Positions 16,060-22,470 of a DNA stretch of 32,395 bases are shown piece by piece. Below the pieces are notes generated by a model, which was not told the origin of the DNA, ran no database searches, and saw only the letters and a list, made by a program, of their open reading frames with translations. A program made the translations under genes and the position numbers. Position 1 is the stretch's first letter, and each line of letters begins with the position of its first letter. This DNA comes from Lysobacterales bacterium (GTDB lineage: Bacteria; Pseudomonadota; Gammaproteobacteria; Xanthomonadales; SZUA-36), in assembly GCA_029935455.1 (NCBI GenBank), contig JAOZKI010000025.1, positions 1-32,395 of the forward strand, given 5' to 3'.

Positions 16060-17397
16060 TTAGCGGTCATAGTCGAGCGCCTGTGCAGCGCCATGTTCAA
16101 TCACGTCCGTACCGTCAAAGGCCAGGGCACCATTCACCCAGGTTGACATCACACGTCCTTGAAAACTGCGTCCCTCAAACGGCGTCCATGCGATATGCGC
16201 GCGCTGTCGTTCCTGCGTGGCCAGGGTCTCACCCTGCAGGTCAACCAGCACCAGGTCAGCCCAGTAGCCCTCGCGGAGATAGCCCCGATCTTTGACATCA
16301 AAACGGTCCGCCGGATTGTGCATGCCCTTGGTCACCAGATTGGTCAGAGACAGCTTGCCGCGCGCTACCAAATCCAGGCTACCGACCAGCACATCCTGGA
16401 CCAGCGGCAGGCCCGCGGGTGCTTTGAAGTAGTCGTTCGTGCTTTTTTCCGCCAGCGTATGTGGCGCGTGGTCCGTGGCCAGGATATCGATGCGGCCATC
16501 GTCCAAAGCGGCTAACAGGCCCGCCTGATCAGCGGCGGTCTTGATGGCCGGGTTGCACTTGATGCGGTTGCCGAGGCTGGCAAAGTCGGCATCGGTAAAA
16601 TGCAGGAAATGGATACAGGTCTCAGCGGTAATCTTCTTGCCGGCCATGGGGCCGGGTTCAAAAAAGTCCAACTCGCGGGCTGTGGTCAGGTGGAGCACGT
16701 GCAAGCGCGCTTCGTGTTCACGCGCCAGGGAAGTGGCCATGTCGGTTGAGGCATAGCAGGCTTCGGCGCTGCGAATCCTGGGGTGTAACTCAACGGGTAT
16801 TTCCCGCCCGTAGCGGGCTTCGGCAGCGGCGATGTTTTCCTCAATCATGGGGGAATATTCACAGTGGGTCGCTATCACCAAGGGACAGTCGCGAAAAATC
16901 AGGGACAGGACCTTCTCATCGTCTACCAGCATATTGCCGGTACTGGCCCCCATGAATACCTTGACACCACAGGCGAGGTGGGGGTTCACGGCTCGCACGT
17001 CCTCAATATTGTCGTTGCTAGCCCCAAGATAGAAGCCCCAGTTGGCCGCCGCATGCTCGCGGGCCACCGCATGTTTGGCCTCCAGAGCGGCCTCATTGGT
17101 GGTGGTTGGGTTGGTGTTAGGCATATCCATAAAACTGGTCACACCACCCGCGACGGCGGCCCGAGACTCGCTACGAATGCTGCCCTTGTGGGGGGCGCCA
17201 GGATCGCGGAAATGAACCTGATCATCAATAAAGCCCGGCAGTAGGTGTAATCCTTTTGCGTCAATGACCTGTGCGCCCGCCGGCGCGCTGATCGAATCGC
17301 TGATGCGCTCGATGCGCCCGTCCTTGATCAGTAGATCGGCCGTGAAGACCTGACCTTCGTTAACCAGAGTTGCATTGGTGATCAGTGTTTGGCTCAT
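16060..17397 (-). CDS. Dihydroorotase, class I (long form)
   Basis: Cyclic amidohydrolase of pyrimidine synthesis (carbamoyl aspartate to dihydroorotate). The metal-site elements are readable: Gln60 and His62 in GFIDDQVHFRDPG, Lys146 in GVKVFMGAS (the carbamylated lysine), His178 in ATHCE, His236 in HVLHLT, and Asp309 in TDHAPH. At 445 residues it is the long class I type, not the short E. coli PyrC type. The first metal-binding position, His in most dihydroorotases, is Gln here; I recall the same DDQVHF wording in Bacteroidetes-type enzymes. The ribosome binding site is weak. It lies downstream of yidD on the same strand. A related amidohydrolase activity is possible, but every other motif says dihydroorotase. 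Confidence 0.9.
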   Translation of the reverse strand: MSQTLITNATLVNEGQVFTADLLIKDGRIERISDSISAPAGAQVIDAKGLHLLPGFIDDQVHFRDPGAPHKGSIRSESRAAVAGGVTSFMDMPNTNPTTTNEAALEAKHAVAREHAAANWGFYLGASNDNIEDVRAVNPHLACGVKVFMGASTGNMLVDDEKVLSLIFRDCPLVIATHCEYSPMIEENIAAAEARYGREIPVELHPRIRSAEACYASTDMATSLAREHEARLHVLHLTTARELDFFEPGPMAGKKITAETCIHFLHFTDADFASLGNRIKCNPAIKTAADQAGLLAALDDGRIDILATDHAPHTLAEKSTNDYFKAPAGLPLVQDVLVGSLDLVARGKLSLTNLVTKGMHNPADRFDVKDRGYLREGYWADLVLVDLQGETLATQERQRAHIAWTPFEGRSFQGRVMSTWVNGALAFDGTDVIEHGAAQALDYDR

Positions 17398-17453: not shown

Positions 17454-17687
17454 TTAGGGCGGGGGGTGTTTGTCGGAACCCGGGACGGGATCAATGCCGC
17501 CTTCGCAGAGCGGATGGCAGCGCAGGATGCGCTTGATGGCCAGCCAGCTGCCCCGTGCCGGACCGTGCAAGCGGATGGCTTCCTGCGCATAGCGTGAACA
17601 GCTTGGCGTGAAGCGGCAATGCATGCCAATCAACGGACTCAGCGTCAGCTGGTAAAGGCGGATCATGCTAAGCAGTAAACGTTCCAT
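17454..17687 (-). CDS. yidD: Membrane protein insertion efficiency factor YidD
   Basis: A small protein that associates with the inner membrane by an N-terminal amphipathic helix and aids insertion of membrane proteins near YidC. The family signature is clear: IRLYQLTLSPLIG, then CRFTPSCSRYAQEAI, then RCHPLCEGGIDPVP, with the conserved cysteines. Its 77 residues are typical. In many bacteria yidD sits in rpmH-rnpA-yidD-yidC; here it is beside dihydroorotase, 56 bases upstream of it. Confidence 0.95.
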   Translation of the reverse strand: MERLLLSMIRLYQLTLSPLIGMHCRFTPSCSRYAQEAIRLHGPARGSWLAIKRILRCHPLCEGGIDPVPGSDKHPPP

Positions 17688-17729: not shown

Positions 17730-17758
17730 TTGCCCCAGACTGGCGCTTCGGCTATAAC
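17730..17758 (+). promoter_or_regulatory. Candidate sigma-70 promoter of dksA
   Basis: TTGCCC (17730-17735) and TATAAC (17753-17758) with a 17-base spacer. Transcription would start near 17765, leaving a leader of about 95 bases that holds CCCC-TTCA-GGGG and the palindrome at 17818. Confidence 0.55.
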
Positions 17759-17817: not shown

Positions 17818-17834
17818 GGTTTATTAAATAAACC
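17818..17834 (+). repeat. Perfect AT-rich palindrome in the dksA leader
   Basis: GGTTTATTAAATAAACC reads as an 8-bp perfect inverted repeat with one central base. It ends nine bases before the ribosome binding site (AGAGGAG, 17844-17850). It looks like an operator for a dimeric repressor; a leader hairpin is unlikely with a one-base loop unless the inner pairs open. Confidence 0.55.
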
Positions 17835-17860
17835 TGCGTAGTAAGAGGAGTTAATGCCGG

Positions 17861-18289
17861 ATGTCCAGCACGCAAGTCAAGCTGCCCAAGGGTTACAAGC
17901 CCACGCAGAAAGAAGAATATATGTCAGCCAAACAGCTGGAGTACTTCCGTCACAAGCTACTGAGCTGGCGCGATGAACTGGTGGAAGAATCACGTGAAAC
18001 CATCAGCAATCTGCAGGAAGAGGTGCGGGATGTTGGTGATGAGGCGGAACGCGCGACCCGCGAAACGGAAAACAGCCTTGAGCTTCGCACGCGCGATCGC
18101 TACCGCAAGCTGATCAAGAAAATTGATCAGGCGCTCATGCGCGTTGACGAGGGTGAGTACGGTTACTGCGAAGAAACTGGCGAAGAGATTGGTCTGGCGC
18201 GACTTGAAGCACGCCCCATCGCCACCTTGTGCCTGGATGCACAGGAGCGTTGGGAGCTGCGCCAGAAACAGATGGGTGATGGCCGCTAG
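17861..18289 (+). CDS. dksA: RNA polymerase-binding transcription factor DksA, zinc-finger-less type
   Basis: Binds the secondary channel of RNA polymerase and, with ppGpp, down-regulates stable RNA promoters and activates amino-acid promoters. The 142 residues show the DksA plan: N-terminal helix, long coiled coil (about 25-95) and globular part with ARLEARP. The tip motif is Asp60-Glu-Ala-Glu63-Arg-Ala65; E. coli has DxxDxA, so the second acidic residue is Glu. Two of the four zinc cysteines are missing: Cys103/Thr106 and Cys124/Ala127 replace CxxC and CxxC. This matches the zinc-independent DksA type (for example DksA2 of P. aeruginosa). AGAGGAG at 17844-17850 supports the start. A terminator follows 19 bases after the stop. 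Confidence 0.95.
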   Translation: MSSTQVKLPKGYKPTQKEEYMSAKQLEYFRHKLLSWRDELVEESRETISNLQEEVRDVGDEAERATRETENSLELRTRDRYRKLIKKIDQALMRVDEGEYGYCEETGEEIGLARLEARPIATLCLDAQERWELRQKQMGDGR

Positions 18290-18308
18290 ACGGTTTCATG
18301 GAACGACG

Positions 18309-18337
18309 GAAAAACCGGCTTTCGGGCCGGTTTTTTT
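18309..18337. terminator. Bidirectional terminator between dksA and sufE
   Basis: An A-run, CCGGC (18315-18319), loop TTTCGG, GCCGG (18326-18330), then seven T. The last T bases are also part of the sufE stop codon on the other strand (18336-18338). It can end dksA and, in reverse, the minus-strand transcript. Confidence 0.9.
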
Positions 18338-18764
18338 ATGCCTGTTCGTCGCGCTCCATGCGCTCCGCCGCCTGCATGATGGCAGCGAGCATGGCATGCA
18401 GGCCGTTGGCTCGGGTTGGGCTCAGATGCTCGCCCAGACCCAGTTCCTTAACAAAGCGCGGTGGTGTTTCCAGAATGACCCGGGCCGGTAGATCGGAATA
18501 GACACGCACCAGCAGGGCGATAAGGCCACTGACAATGGCTGCATCGGAGTTGGCGCGAATACGGACCGCTTCCCGGTCACCGTCAATCAGCAGCCAAACG
18601 CGACTTTGACAGCCATCAAGCAGCTTGTCATCACGTTTTTCATCTGCGTCCAATGGCGCCAATTTGCGGCCCAGATCGATCAGATACTGGTAACGATCCA
18701 GCCATTCGGGAAACAGGCTGAACTCGTCGATAATCTCATCTTGTGCGCTCTGCGGATCGTTCAT
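18336..18764 (-). CDS. sufE: SufE-family cysteine desulfurase sulfur acceptor
   Basis: Accepts persulfide sulfur from a cysteine desulfurase (SufS or CsdA) and passes it on for Fe-S cluster assembly. The acceptor Cys52 lies in the family motif LLDGCQSRVW. Other family features are the N-terminal DEFSLFPEWLDRYQYLIDLG region and ADSDA-like RANSDAAIVSGLIALL. A TTG-started reading from 18770 is possible; the ATG at 18764 gives 142 residues and has a modest AG-rich site upstream. It lies just upstream of the terminator and 15-21 bases downstream of cysS, so the two are probably co-transcribed. It could equally be CsdE, and no desulfurase gene lies in the window. Confidence 0.9.
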   Translation of the reverse strand: MNDPQSAQDEIIDEFSLFPEWLDRYQYLIDLGRKLAPLDADEKRDDKLLDGCQSRVWLLIDGDREAVRIRANSDAAIVSGLIALLVRVYSDLPARVILETPPRFVKELGLGEHLSPTRANGLHAMLAAIMQAAERMERDEQA

Positions 18765-18785
18765 ATGCAAGACTCTCGAGATGCG

Positions 18786-20171
18786 TTAGCTGCGCCGCCA
18801 GCGGGTTGCACCAGCGCCATCTTCCAGCACAATGCCCATGCCGGTCAGCTGATCACGCAACTCATCCGCGCGACCGAAATTCCGGTCCTTGCGGGCCTGG
18901 TCGCGTTCTTGCACCAGTTGGTCAATGTGCGCGTCATCATCTTGTGCACCGCCCTTAAACCACTGTTCCGGATCAACGGTCAGCAAACCGATCAATGCGC
19001 CATCCGCGAGCAGTTCACCAGCCAGCACGCGCAGTTGATCGTCCGGAGCCTCTGCCCCCAGAGCGCTGCCCAGTTTCCGTGCCAGGGTATTGAGTTCCGC
19101 CAACGCGTCGGGCGTTGCCAAATCGTCTTCCAGCGCGGCGATAAAAGCGGCGCCGGGCTCGCTGGCTTGCAGGTCCGGTAAGACCGCCAGCGCATCGCGA
19201 AGTACCGCATACATGCGGTCCAGTGTGCGCTGAGCCTGCCGAATGGCTTGTTCTGACCAGTCCAGGGGCTGTCGGTAGTGGGCGCTGAGCAGAACATAGC
19301 GCAGCGCCTCACCGGGGAAGTGCTGAATCAGTTCGTGCACGATCAGCGTATTACCCAGTGACTTGGACATTTTTTCCTTGTCGACCGTTACAAAGCCATT
19401 ATGCATCCAGTAGCGCGCAAACGGCTTACCGCCGTGCACGCAAACGCTCTGGGCAATTTCATTCTCATGATGCGGAAATACCAGGTCCTGACCACCGCCA
19501 TGAATATCGATGGTTTCGCCGAGATGTTCCGCTGCCATGGCTGAGCATTCAAGGTGCCAGCCCGGACGCCCCCAGCCCCAGGGGCTTTCCCAGCCTGGTT
19601 GTGGGTCAACGGACGGTTTCCACAGCACAAAATCACCCGCATTGCGCTTGTAGGGTGCCACCTCAACACGGGCGCCGGCTACCATGTCGTCCATGCTGCG
19701 GCGTGATAGGGCGCCGTACTGCTCGTAGCTATCGATGGCGAACAGCACATGACCCTCAGCCGCGTAGGCATGCCCCGAGGCAATAAGCCGTTCGATCATG
19801 GAAATCATCTGCGGAATATGCTCGGTAGCAAGGGGTTCAATCGTTGGCAAGCGCACACCGAGAGCCCCCATATCCTCATGGTAAGCGCGTGTGTAGCGAC
19901 CACTGATCACTTCAATGGGCACATTTTCGGCGGCGGCTGAGGCGTTTATTTTGTCGTCCACATCGGTGATGTTGCGGGCATAGACAACCTCGCCAAAGCG
20001 ACGTGCGAGCACCCGCGCCAGCAATTCAAAGATAACCGCCGGACGGGCATTGCCGATGTGTGCGTAGTTATACACGGTTGGTCCGCAGGCATAGAGCGTG
20101 ACCCGGTTGGGATCGAGCGGTTCAAAGCGTTCCTTGCTGCGGGACAACGTATTGTATAAGCGGATAGTCAC
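18786..20171 (-). CDS. cysS: Cysteinyl-tRNA synthetase
   Basis: Class I aminoacyl-tRNA synthetase that charges tRNA-Cys. The HIGH-type motif is AHIGNAR (HIGN at 38-41), the KMSKS motif is in [11 protein letters not shown], and zinc ligands are at Cys29 (YACGPT), the Cys of HLECSAMA and the HHENE segment. The length of 461 residues is normal. The start codon is GTG at 20171, supported by alignment with the E. coli start, with only a distant AAGG upstream. It is the first gene of a minus-strand pair with sufE and divergent from pepQ across 201 bases that hold GC-rich hairpins (GGCCG 20255-20259 with CGGCC 20269-20273) but no obvious promoter. Confidence 0.97.
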
Positions 20172-21703: not shown

Positions 21704-22339
21704 TCAATCGTCGCCAATCCCCAGCCCACGCAGCTGCGAGACCGGCATTTCGCCAGCGGGGCCGTGATTCCAGATATTGGCACGGTTTTCCACGTCACGG
21801 CGCTTGTCGATGCTGGCCATGGCCTTAACGGCCTGCATAATGCCCGCATCTTTTATCGCGTTGGTGACGAATAAATCCAGTTCGGCCACATAGGGGTCGC
21901 CGATAATTTTCCGCATCACGCGATTGGCCGTTGATAGATCCTCCGGAAACAGATGCTTGCCCGTCTGCAGCAGGTAATGATCTGACACCGATTGCAGTGT
22001 GACCAGACTGCAGTAGGCATCGTCCAGCAGGCCGATAATGCCGAGATGGTCAGGAATCACGTCCTCGCCTTGTTCCCAGTAGGAGATCACCATGGCAACG
22101 ATCTGTTCCATCTCCGATTCCAGACCCACCGTCCGCGCCGCGGTCATGGCCACCTTGAGCATGTAAGGTACCTGCTCAACATAGCCGGTGACAAAGCGCG
22201 TACCGCGCTCCAGTTCTGCCTCATCCGGGACGATGCCGTTACGTTCCGCAATGACCGCCAACAGATCATGCAGGTCGCGCGCCGCCAGCGCATCACTACA
22301 GATGTCGTGAATCATGGCTTCTATGGCGGACGTTTCCAT
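21704..22339 (-). CDS. Protein of unknown function with DUF1232-like segment
   Basis: A soluble-looking protein of 211 codons, acidic, mostly helical, with no signal peptide. Around the middle, DVIPDHLGIIGLLDDAYCSL resembles the I-P-D ... G-x-x-DD core of DUF1232 (YkvA-type) proteins, but that family is usually short and membrane-linked, so the link is tentative. A GTG-started reading from 22438 adds 33 residues without a good ribosome binding site; the ATG at 22339 is preferred. The longer reading would overlap the region upstream of the divergent ZIP-like gene. A CAGAC-TTTC-GTCTG hairpin lies in the leader. It stands alone on its strand between convergent pepQ and the divergent ZIP-like gene. 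Confidence 0.75.
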   Translation of the reverse strand: METSAIEAMIHDICSDALAARDLHDLLAVIAERNGIVPDEAELERGTRFVTGYVEQVPYMLKVAMTAARTVGLESEMEQIVAMVISYWEQGEDVIPDHLGIIGLLDDAYCSLVTLQSVSDHYLLQTGKHLFPEDLSTANRVMRKIIGDPYVAELDLFVTNAIKDAGIMQAVKAMASIDKRRDVENRANIWNHGPAGEMPVSQLRGLGIGDD

Positions 22340-22470
22340 GTCTCTATCGCGTGGCTCGAAACAGACGAAAGTCTGCGTGATTTGGCCGCTTATCACAAGC
22401 CAAACCACCTTTTTGCTTGGCCTCGGAAAGCGCTTCACGTAGGCTAAGCCGTCCGTGCTGGAGTCCCGCT

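Follow-up and report, generated by a model that had tools for sequence, protein, structure and literature searches.

An apparently single DksA without the four-cysteine zinc site, and with a DxxExA coiled-coil tip, in a draft Lysobacterales genome

Does a DksA that keeps only half of its zinc-site cysteines serve as the everyday stringent regulator of its host, or is it a stand-in used when zinc runs short? The question is raised by a gene located on the plus strand at positions 17861 to 18289 (stop codon included) of a 32,395-nucleotide stretch of DNA from a bacterium of the Lysobacterales (Xanthomonadales); this whole stretch is referred to below as the window. A preliminary description of the locus had left two branches standing: if the product is the only DksA of the genome, stringent control through DksA would need no zinc; if a second DksA with four cysteines exists, the product may be a zinc-starvation copy comparable to DksA2 of Pseudomonas aeruginosa. 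The reading that we favor, with a probability of roughly 87%, is that of a sole housekeeping DksA belonging to a zinc-free branch of the family, which would be expressed constitutively, would carry no metal, and would act as a normal, zinc-independent stringent regulator.

The 142-aa open reading frame stood up to re-examination, and a profile search identifies its product as DksA, with 155.4 bits against TIGR02420 for a cut-off of 115.5; the Pfam domains DksA_N (101.9 bits) and zf-dskA_traR (48.3 bits) are both present. Membership of the TraR/YbiI-like proteins failed, with 27.2 bits against TIGR02419 (cut-off 59.7), 18.4 bits against PRK11019 (cut-off 96), and no C4 motif. Among solved relatives, phmmer ranks E. 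coli DksA best (124.3 bits), with 62 identities over 128 positions in a gapless alignment, and gives 86.8 bits to P. aeruginosa DksA2.

Residue numbers C114, C117, C135, C138, D71, D74, and K139 are those of E. coli DksA. Alignment with this protein bears out both residue patterns announced in the preliminary description. Two of the four zinc-site cysteines are kept, Cys103 (C114) and Cys124 (C135), while C117 is replaced by Thr106 and C138 by Ala127; the former zinc site reads C103-E-E-T106 in its first half (18167–18178, plus strand) and C124-L-D-A127 in its second half (18230–18241, plus strand), and the four-cysteine site, usual but not required in DksA, is thereby absent. The DxxDxA tip of the coiled coil is absent as well; the protein has instead DEAERA (DxxExA; codons at 18038–18055, plus strand), that is, D60-E-A-E63-R-A65, in which D71 and A76 are kept and D74 is conservatively changed to Glu63. 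A further change concerns K139, which belongs to ppGpp Site 2 in the E. coli protein and is Gln128 here (18242–18244, plus strand); the Site 2 positions R91, L95, K98, and R129 are kept, and N88 is Thr77.

An AlphaFold model was built from a 47-row alignment (A1). Its mean pLDDT is 86.3, the tip being less sure (67–68 for residues 51–70), and its helices span residues 23–56, 63–97, 112–117, and 125–138, so that coiled coil, globular domain, and C-terminal helix are all found. Structure matches are 7khi, 1tjl, 5vsw, and 4ijj, with TM values of 0.74–0.77 to E. coli DksA and 0.74–0.81 to the zinc-free DksA2. Our protein thus resembles E. coli DksA (1TJL, 5VSW, 7KHI) in its fold and in most of the residues facing RNA polymerase and ppGpp, but it differs from it by C117T, C138A, D74E, N88T, and K139Q.

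P. aeruginosa offers the model for a zinc-starvation copy. The pair DksA1 and DksA2 and the repression of DksA2 by Zur are described in PMC9213440, and DksA2 is reported to have the same globular fold without the zinc finger (PMC9239242). The likeness to DksA2 (4IJJ) suggested in the preliminary description holds for the CxxT...CxxA pattern and for the fold; it does not extend to closest kinship, given the phmmer scores above, and DksA2 differs in being a second, Zur-repressed copy (PMC9213440) with D74 and K139. If the gene studied here were a Zur-repressed paralogue of this type, substituting for a four-cysteine DksA, the nearby dihydroorotase gene and cysS would also fit, since other bacteria are listed as having Zur-linked paralogues of PyrC, CysRS, and DksA (PMC2770081). 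The content of the genome, a draft of 2.63 Mb in 130 contigs with completeness given as 100, argues otherwise. TIGR02420 has one match in it, the gene at 17861–18289, and PF01258 has two, DksA itself and a YbiI-like, four-cysteine protein of the DksA/TraR family on contig C21 (L262: 8575–8937, minus strand), which scores 148.7 bits (cut-off 96) against PRK11019, presumably the YbiI model; the four-cysteine DksA sought as a second copy was not found in the draft. No Zur was found there either: the only protein of the FUR family scores as Fur (153.4 bits, cut-off 146) and not as Zur (22.6 bits, cut-off 167). Likewise, the Zur box sought upstream of dksA is missing, no Zur-like palindrome occurring in the window within three mismatches of what we take to be the Zur-box consensus. 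It should be remembered that a gap of the 130-contig draft could hide a second DksA or a Zur, and that the apparently single copy holds for this draft genome only; in many others from the order, TIGR02420 has two or three matches (E ≤ 0.001), of which the stronger were listed.

The neighborhood has a housekeeping character. The gene order is ppiD-like, fabI, dihydroorotase, yidD, dksA, sufE-like, cysS, and pepQ, with scores below the model cut-offs for ppiD, fabI, and sufE. On the upstream side, the divergent yidD (17454–17687, minus strand) scores 83.8 bits against TIGR00278 (cut-off 40), and the dihydroorotase gene (16060–17397, minus strand) 651.5 bits against PRK09236 (cut-off 535); on the downstream side, we found the convergent sufE-like gene (18336–18770, minus strand), with 102.5 bits against PRK09296, below the cut-off of 160, and cysS (18786–20171, minus strand). 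A zinc-starvation cluster composed of dihydroorotase, cysS, and dksA was considered and rejected: no gene of the genome other than cysS exceeds the TIGR00435 cut-off, and the dihydroorotase is the only strong match to TIGR00857, a comparison covering one dihydroorotase type, at 247 bits (below the cut-off of 279.05) with all other matches at or below 25.2 bits. The arrangement is moreover conserved in the order. In 14 loci taken as order members (L004–L009, L011, L012, L014, and L295–L299, some of them titled only Gammaproteobacteria or Oceanospirillales), yidD lies near dksA in 12, the exceptions being L012 and L295, and sufE and cysS are both nearby in 10; in loci outside the order (L018, L021, L038), dksA appears alone, with none of its order neighbors shown. 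Farther along the window, a 244-aa open reading frame (21704–22438, minus strand) has no NCBIfam match at 1e-10 and recurs near pepQ in L004–L008.

Upstream of dksA lies a sigma-70-like promoter (17730–17758, plus strand) made of TTGCCC (17730–17735), a 17-bp spacer, and TATAAC (17753–17758), conserved as TTGC(C/T) and TATAA(C/A) in an upstream alignment of the window and 16 loci, 12 of them distinct. A ribosome-binding site, AGGAG, is found 10 nt before the ATG (17846–17850, plus strand) and is aligned in the leaders of relatives, and a terminator-like hairpin follows the gene (18308–18337, plus strand; fold of −17.0 kcal/mol, with a 3′ arm ending in a T run). A consensus scan reported neither the dksA promoter nor the terminator, which are proposed on the basis of conservation and of the fold, respectively. 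We also considered TATAACAT, upstream of dksA, as half of a Zur box and rejected it, as it is the conserved −10 element. The leader contains in addition a perfect 17-bp palindrome, GGTTTATTAAATAAACC, at 17818–17834, which is not conserved in the aligned relatives. From the housekeeping context and the conserved promoter, we infer that expression is constitutive. With a sole copy in this draft, a Fur and no Zur found there, and a synteny and promoter conserved as for a housekeeping gene, the zinc-starvation branch fails, and we hold a Zur-repressed substitute to be extremely improbable; the same evidence supports the other branch, that of a single DksA through which stringent control would need no zinc.

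We then asked how far these features extend in the order. TIGR02420 matches over cut-off were obtained in 183 of 200 order genomes; the other 17, including G063 (99% complete, 80 contigs), have no such match, owing either to a gap or to a true loss. Sequences were examined for 93 order genomes from 12 families (92 of the 183, plus G030); this sample consists of the search loci, minus repeats and minus proteins that scored below 70 BLAST bits against the window or against E. coli DksA, and of 60 stretches chosen to span families, two of which came from genomes already in the sample. C117T, C138A, and K139Q are each found in 93 out of 93 genomes and D74E in 92, a recurrence that argues against chance changes in one sequence. 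C114, D71, and A76 are kept in all 93, and position 135 is Cys in 58, Ser in 17, and Thr in 18. In many genomes of families f2, f3, f4, and f12 (L147–L163, L191–L199), the dksA open frame has about 300–580 codons, versus about 145 in the window, a length suggestive of a long extension at the N terminus.

These counts bear on whether zinc might still be bound, through C103, C124, and other ligands. Indeed, all 47 rows of A1 have C103, and both cysteines are kept in 58 of the 93 order members; however, C124 is lost in the other 35 (17 Ser, 18 Thr), Thr and Ala occupy positions 117 and 138 in all 93, and P. aeruginosa DksA2, which has its cysteines at the same two places, is described as coordinating no zinc (PMC9213440). 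A remaining zinc site of this kind is therefore quite improbable in our view. According to the reading that we favor, Thr and Ala would replace two zinc cysteines in a globular domain that would fold metal-free.

Outside the order, we looked at 50 genomes of the same class that belong to different orders, a non-random set of 30 best-scoring loci and 20 picked lower-scoring ones. All four cysteines, K139, and D74 are present in 38 of them; the zinc site is absent from the other 12, among which 10 have Q139, two K139, and one E74. The best 80 matches of the scan for relatives, a set chosen for likeness and sharing some genomes with the other counts, all lack the zinc site and all have Q139; 16 have E74 and 64 have D74, the latter (DxxDxA tip) being mostly Rhodobacterales by title. 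Beyond the order, the closest zinc-free relatives are alphaproteobacterial and other gammaproteobacterial DksAs. The Rhodobacterales rows share C117T or C117S, C138A, and Q139 with the window DksA, but their tip is DxxDxA instead of DxxExA. A mixed case is L231 (G219, same class), with a coiled coil resembling that of four-cysteine proteins (DPNDRA, RDRERKL) but with CxxT...CxxA and Q139, for which independent loss and recombination are suggested as alternatives.

A tree was built from 79 rows and 145 columns only, and many of its forks are unresolved. When unlabelled rows are left out, a single change suffices for the 19 four-cysteine rows, and likewise for the 35 labelled E74 (100/95); in the tree as drawn, the four-cysteine fork has a support of 91/95 and the fork with all E74 rows 92/86. 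Two more E74 rows, L168 and L172, fall outside the 35-row label and under the same E74 fork, and L245, which comes from a different order of the same class, also belongs to the E74 group. The only one of the 93 order members with D74, G053 (L170, family f8), groups with Rhodobacterales rows (100/99) on a long branch, and its dksA (L295) is without the yidD-dksA-sufE-cysS synteny; because of this grouping and of the missing synteny, its dksA is probably a horizontal replacement. The simplest reading of the tree, whose root is unresolved, is that D74E would have arisen once near the base of Lysobacterales, within the zinc-free DksA branch.

Zinc-free DksAs are a kind already known. RSP2654 of R. 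sphaeroides and SMc00469 of S. meliloti are reported to lack the C4 zinc finger and to have a DksA-like function (PMC9239242); it is by this published description that both are set beside the window DksA, as functional DksAs without the C4 site. Within the order, the DksA of Stenotrophomonas (Lysobacteraceae) has the E74 tip and Q139 as well, with yidD, pyrC, sufE, and cysS nearby in L014, but it differs in that C114 is the sole cysteine left of the four. For X. citri, a DksA 46.88% identical to that of E. coli is reported, together with a zinc finger domain (PMC6804348); since the Stenotrophomonas relatives keep one of four cysteines, this wording may not mean a working metal site. In titles and the beginnings of abstracts, we found neither D74E nor an order-wide loss of the zinc site described for Lysobacterales, but either may have been mentioned before; the order-wide DxxExA tip is the part that we did not find described.

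What would such a tip do? In E. coli, D74 is reported to be essential and very highly conserved, the substitution tested being Asn (PMC6488371); D74N fails, the charge of the carboxyl group at this position is described as critical, and the presumed contacts of D74 are beta R678 and R1106 (PMC7461557). We rejected a compensating change at these tip-binding arginines, both being kept unchanged in this genome. As Glu at position 74 retains the carboxylate, which would contact the same two arginines, the tip probably still works. DxxExA is also the tip motif of GreA and GreB, and the Gre tip is described as acting on backtracked elongation complexes and the DksA tip before promoter binding (PMC9239242). 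Gre factors form a separate protein family, and we rejected the idea that their loss accounts for the DxxExA tip of DksA: this genome encodes a GreA and a GreB, each scoring above its cut-off, with the tips GDLKENA and GDRSENA, respectively (GDEAERA in the window DksA), and at least one Gre N-domain match was found in each of the 41 genomes searched, including this one.

The replacement of K139 touches on ppGpp, whose contacts in E. coli DksA are given as K98, R91, K139, L95, and R129, with K139 coordinating phosphates (PMC7676912). With Gln128, one phosphate-binding lysine of Site 2 would be lost, for which R91, K98, L95, R129, and beta′ N680 and K681 probably compensate. The latter two are kept in this genome and invariant in 21 rpoC rows of the order (its own included, some partial), a set from which five further loci were left out; at Site 1, this genome retains beta′ R417, K615, D622, and Y626 and the omega N-terminus MAR. 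Another Site 1 residue, beta′ R362, is Met in the rpoC of this genome (L276); across the 21 rows, position 362 is Lys in 15, Met in 4, and Arg in 2. Since K139 binds ppGpp phosphates in E. coli and R362 is Met here, the ppGpp response may be weaker.

One can go further and propose that D74E and K139Q together make an attenuated or re-tuned DksA, which would bind RNA polymerase with a ppGpp dependence unlike that of E. coli, a proposal compatible with the reading that we favor. The two residues do matter in E. coli, nearly all genomes of the order sample carry both changes, and beta′ 362 varies too; yet, I619 aside (Val in 18 of the 21 rpoC rows, Ile in 3), the other named residues of Sites 1 and 2 are conserved, and Q139 is also found in 64 out of 64 DxxDxA loci, mostly from Rhodobacterales, the order to which we take R. 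sphaeroides, with its functional RSP2654, to belong. In X. citri, moreover, the genes affected by a dksA deletion are reported to be of the same kinds as those affected when (p)ppGpp is lost (PMC6804348). On balance, we find re-tuning rather unlikely, and it is very doubtful that the loss of zinc and of K139 accompanied a move away from gating by ppGpp toward more direct control. According to the reading that we favor, DksA, as a normal stringent regulator, would enter the secondary channel of RNA polymerase, its acidic tip (D71/E74/A76) reaching the active site, and together with ppGpp from SpoT (one SpoT/RelA match in this genome) it would adjust transcription initiation at various promoters, those of rRNA among them.

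In E. coli, D74 is regarded as essential; Glu nevertheless occupies this position in 92 of the 93 genomes sampled from the order, to which Stenotrophomonas belongs, and the same proteins keep just one or two zinc cysteines out of four and lack the ppGpp-contacting K139. These natural variants offer a direct test of which features of the tip, of the zinc site, and of Site 2 DksA needs, and control of DksA through zinc or through the redox state of four thiols should not be assumed in Lysobacterales.
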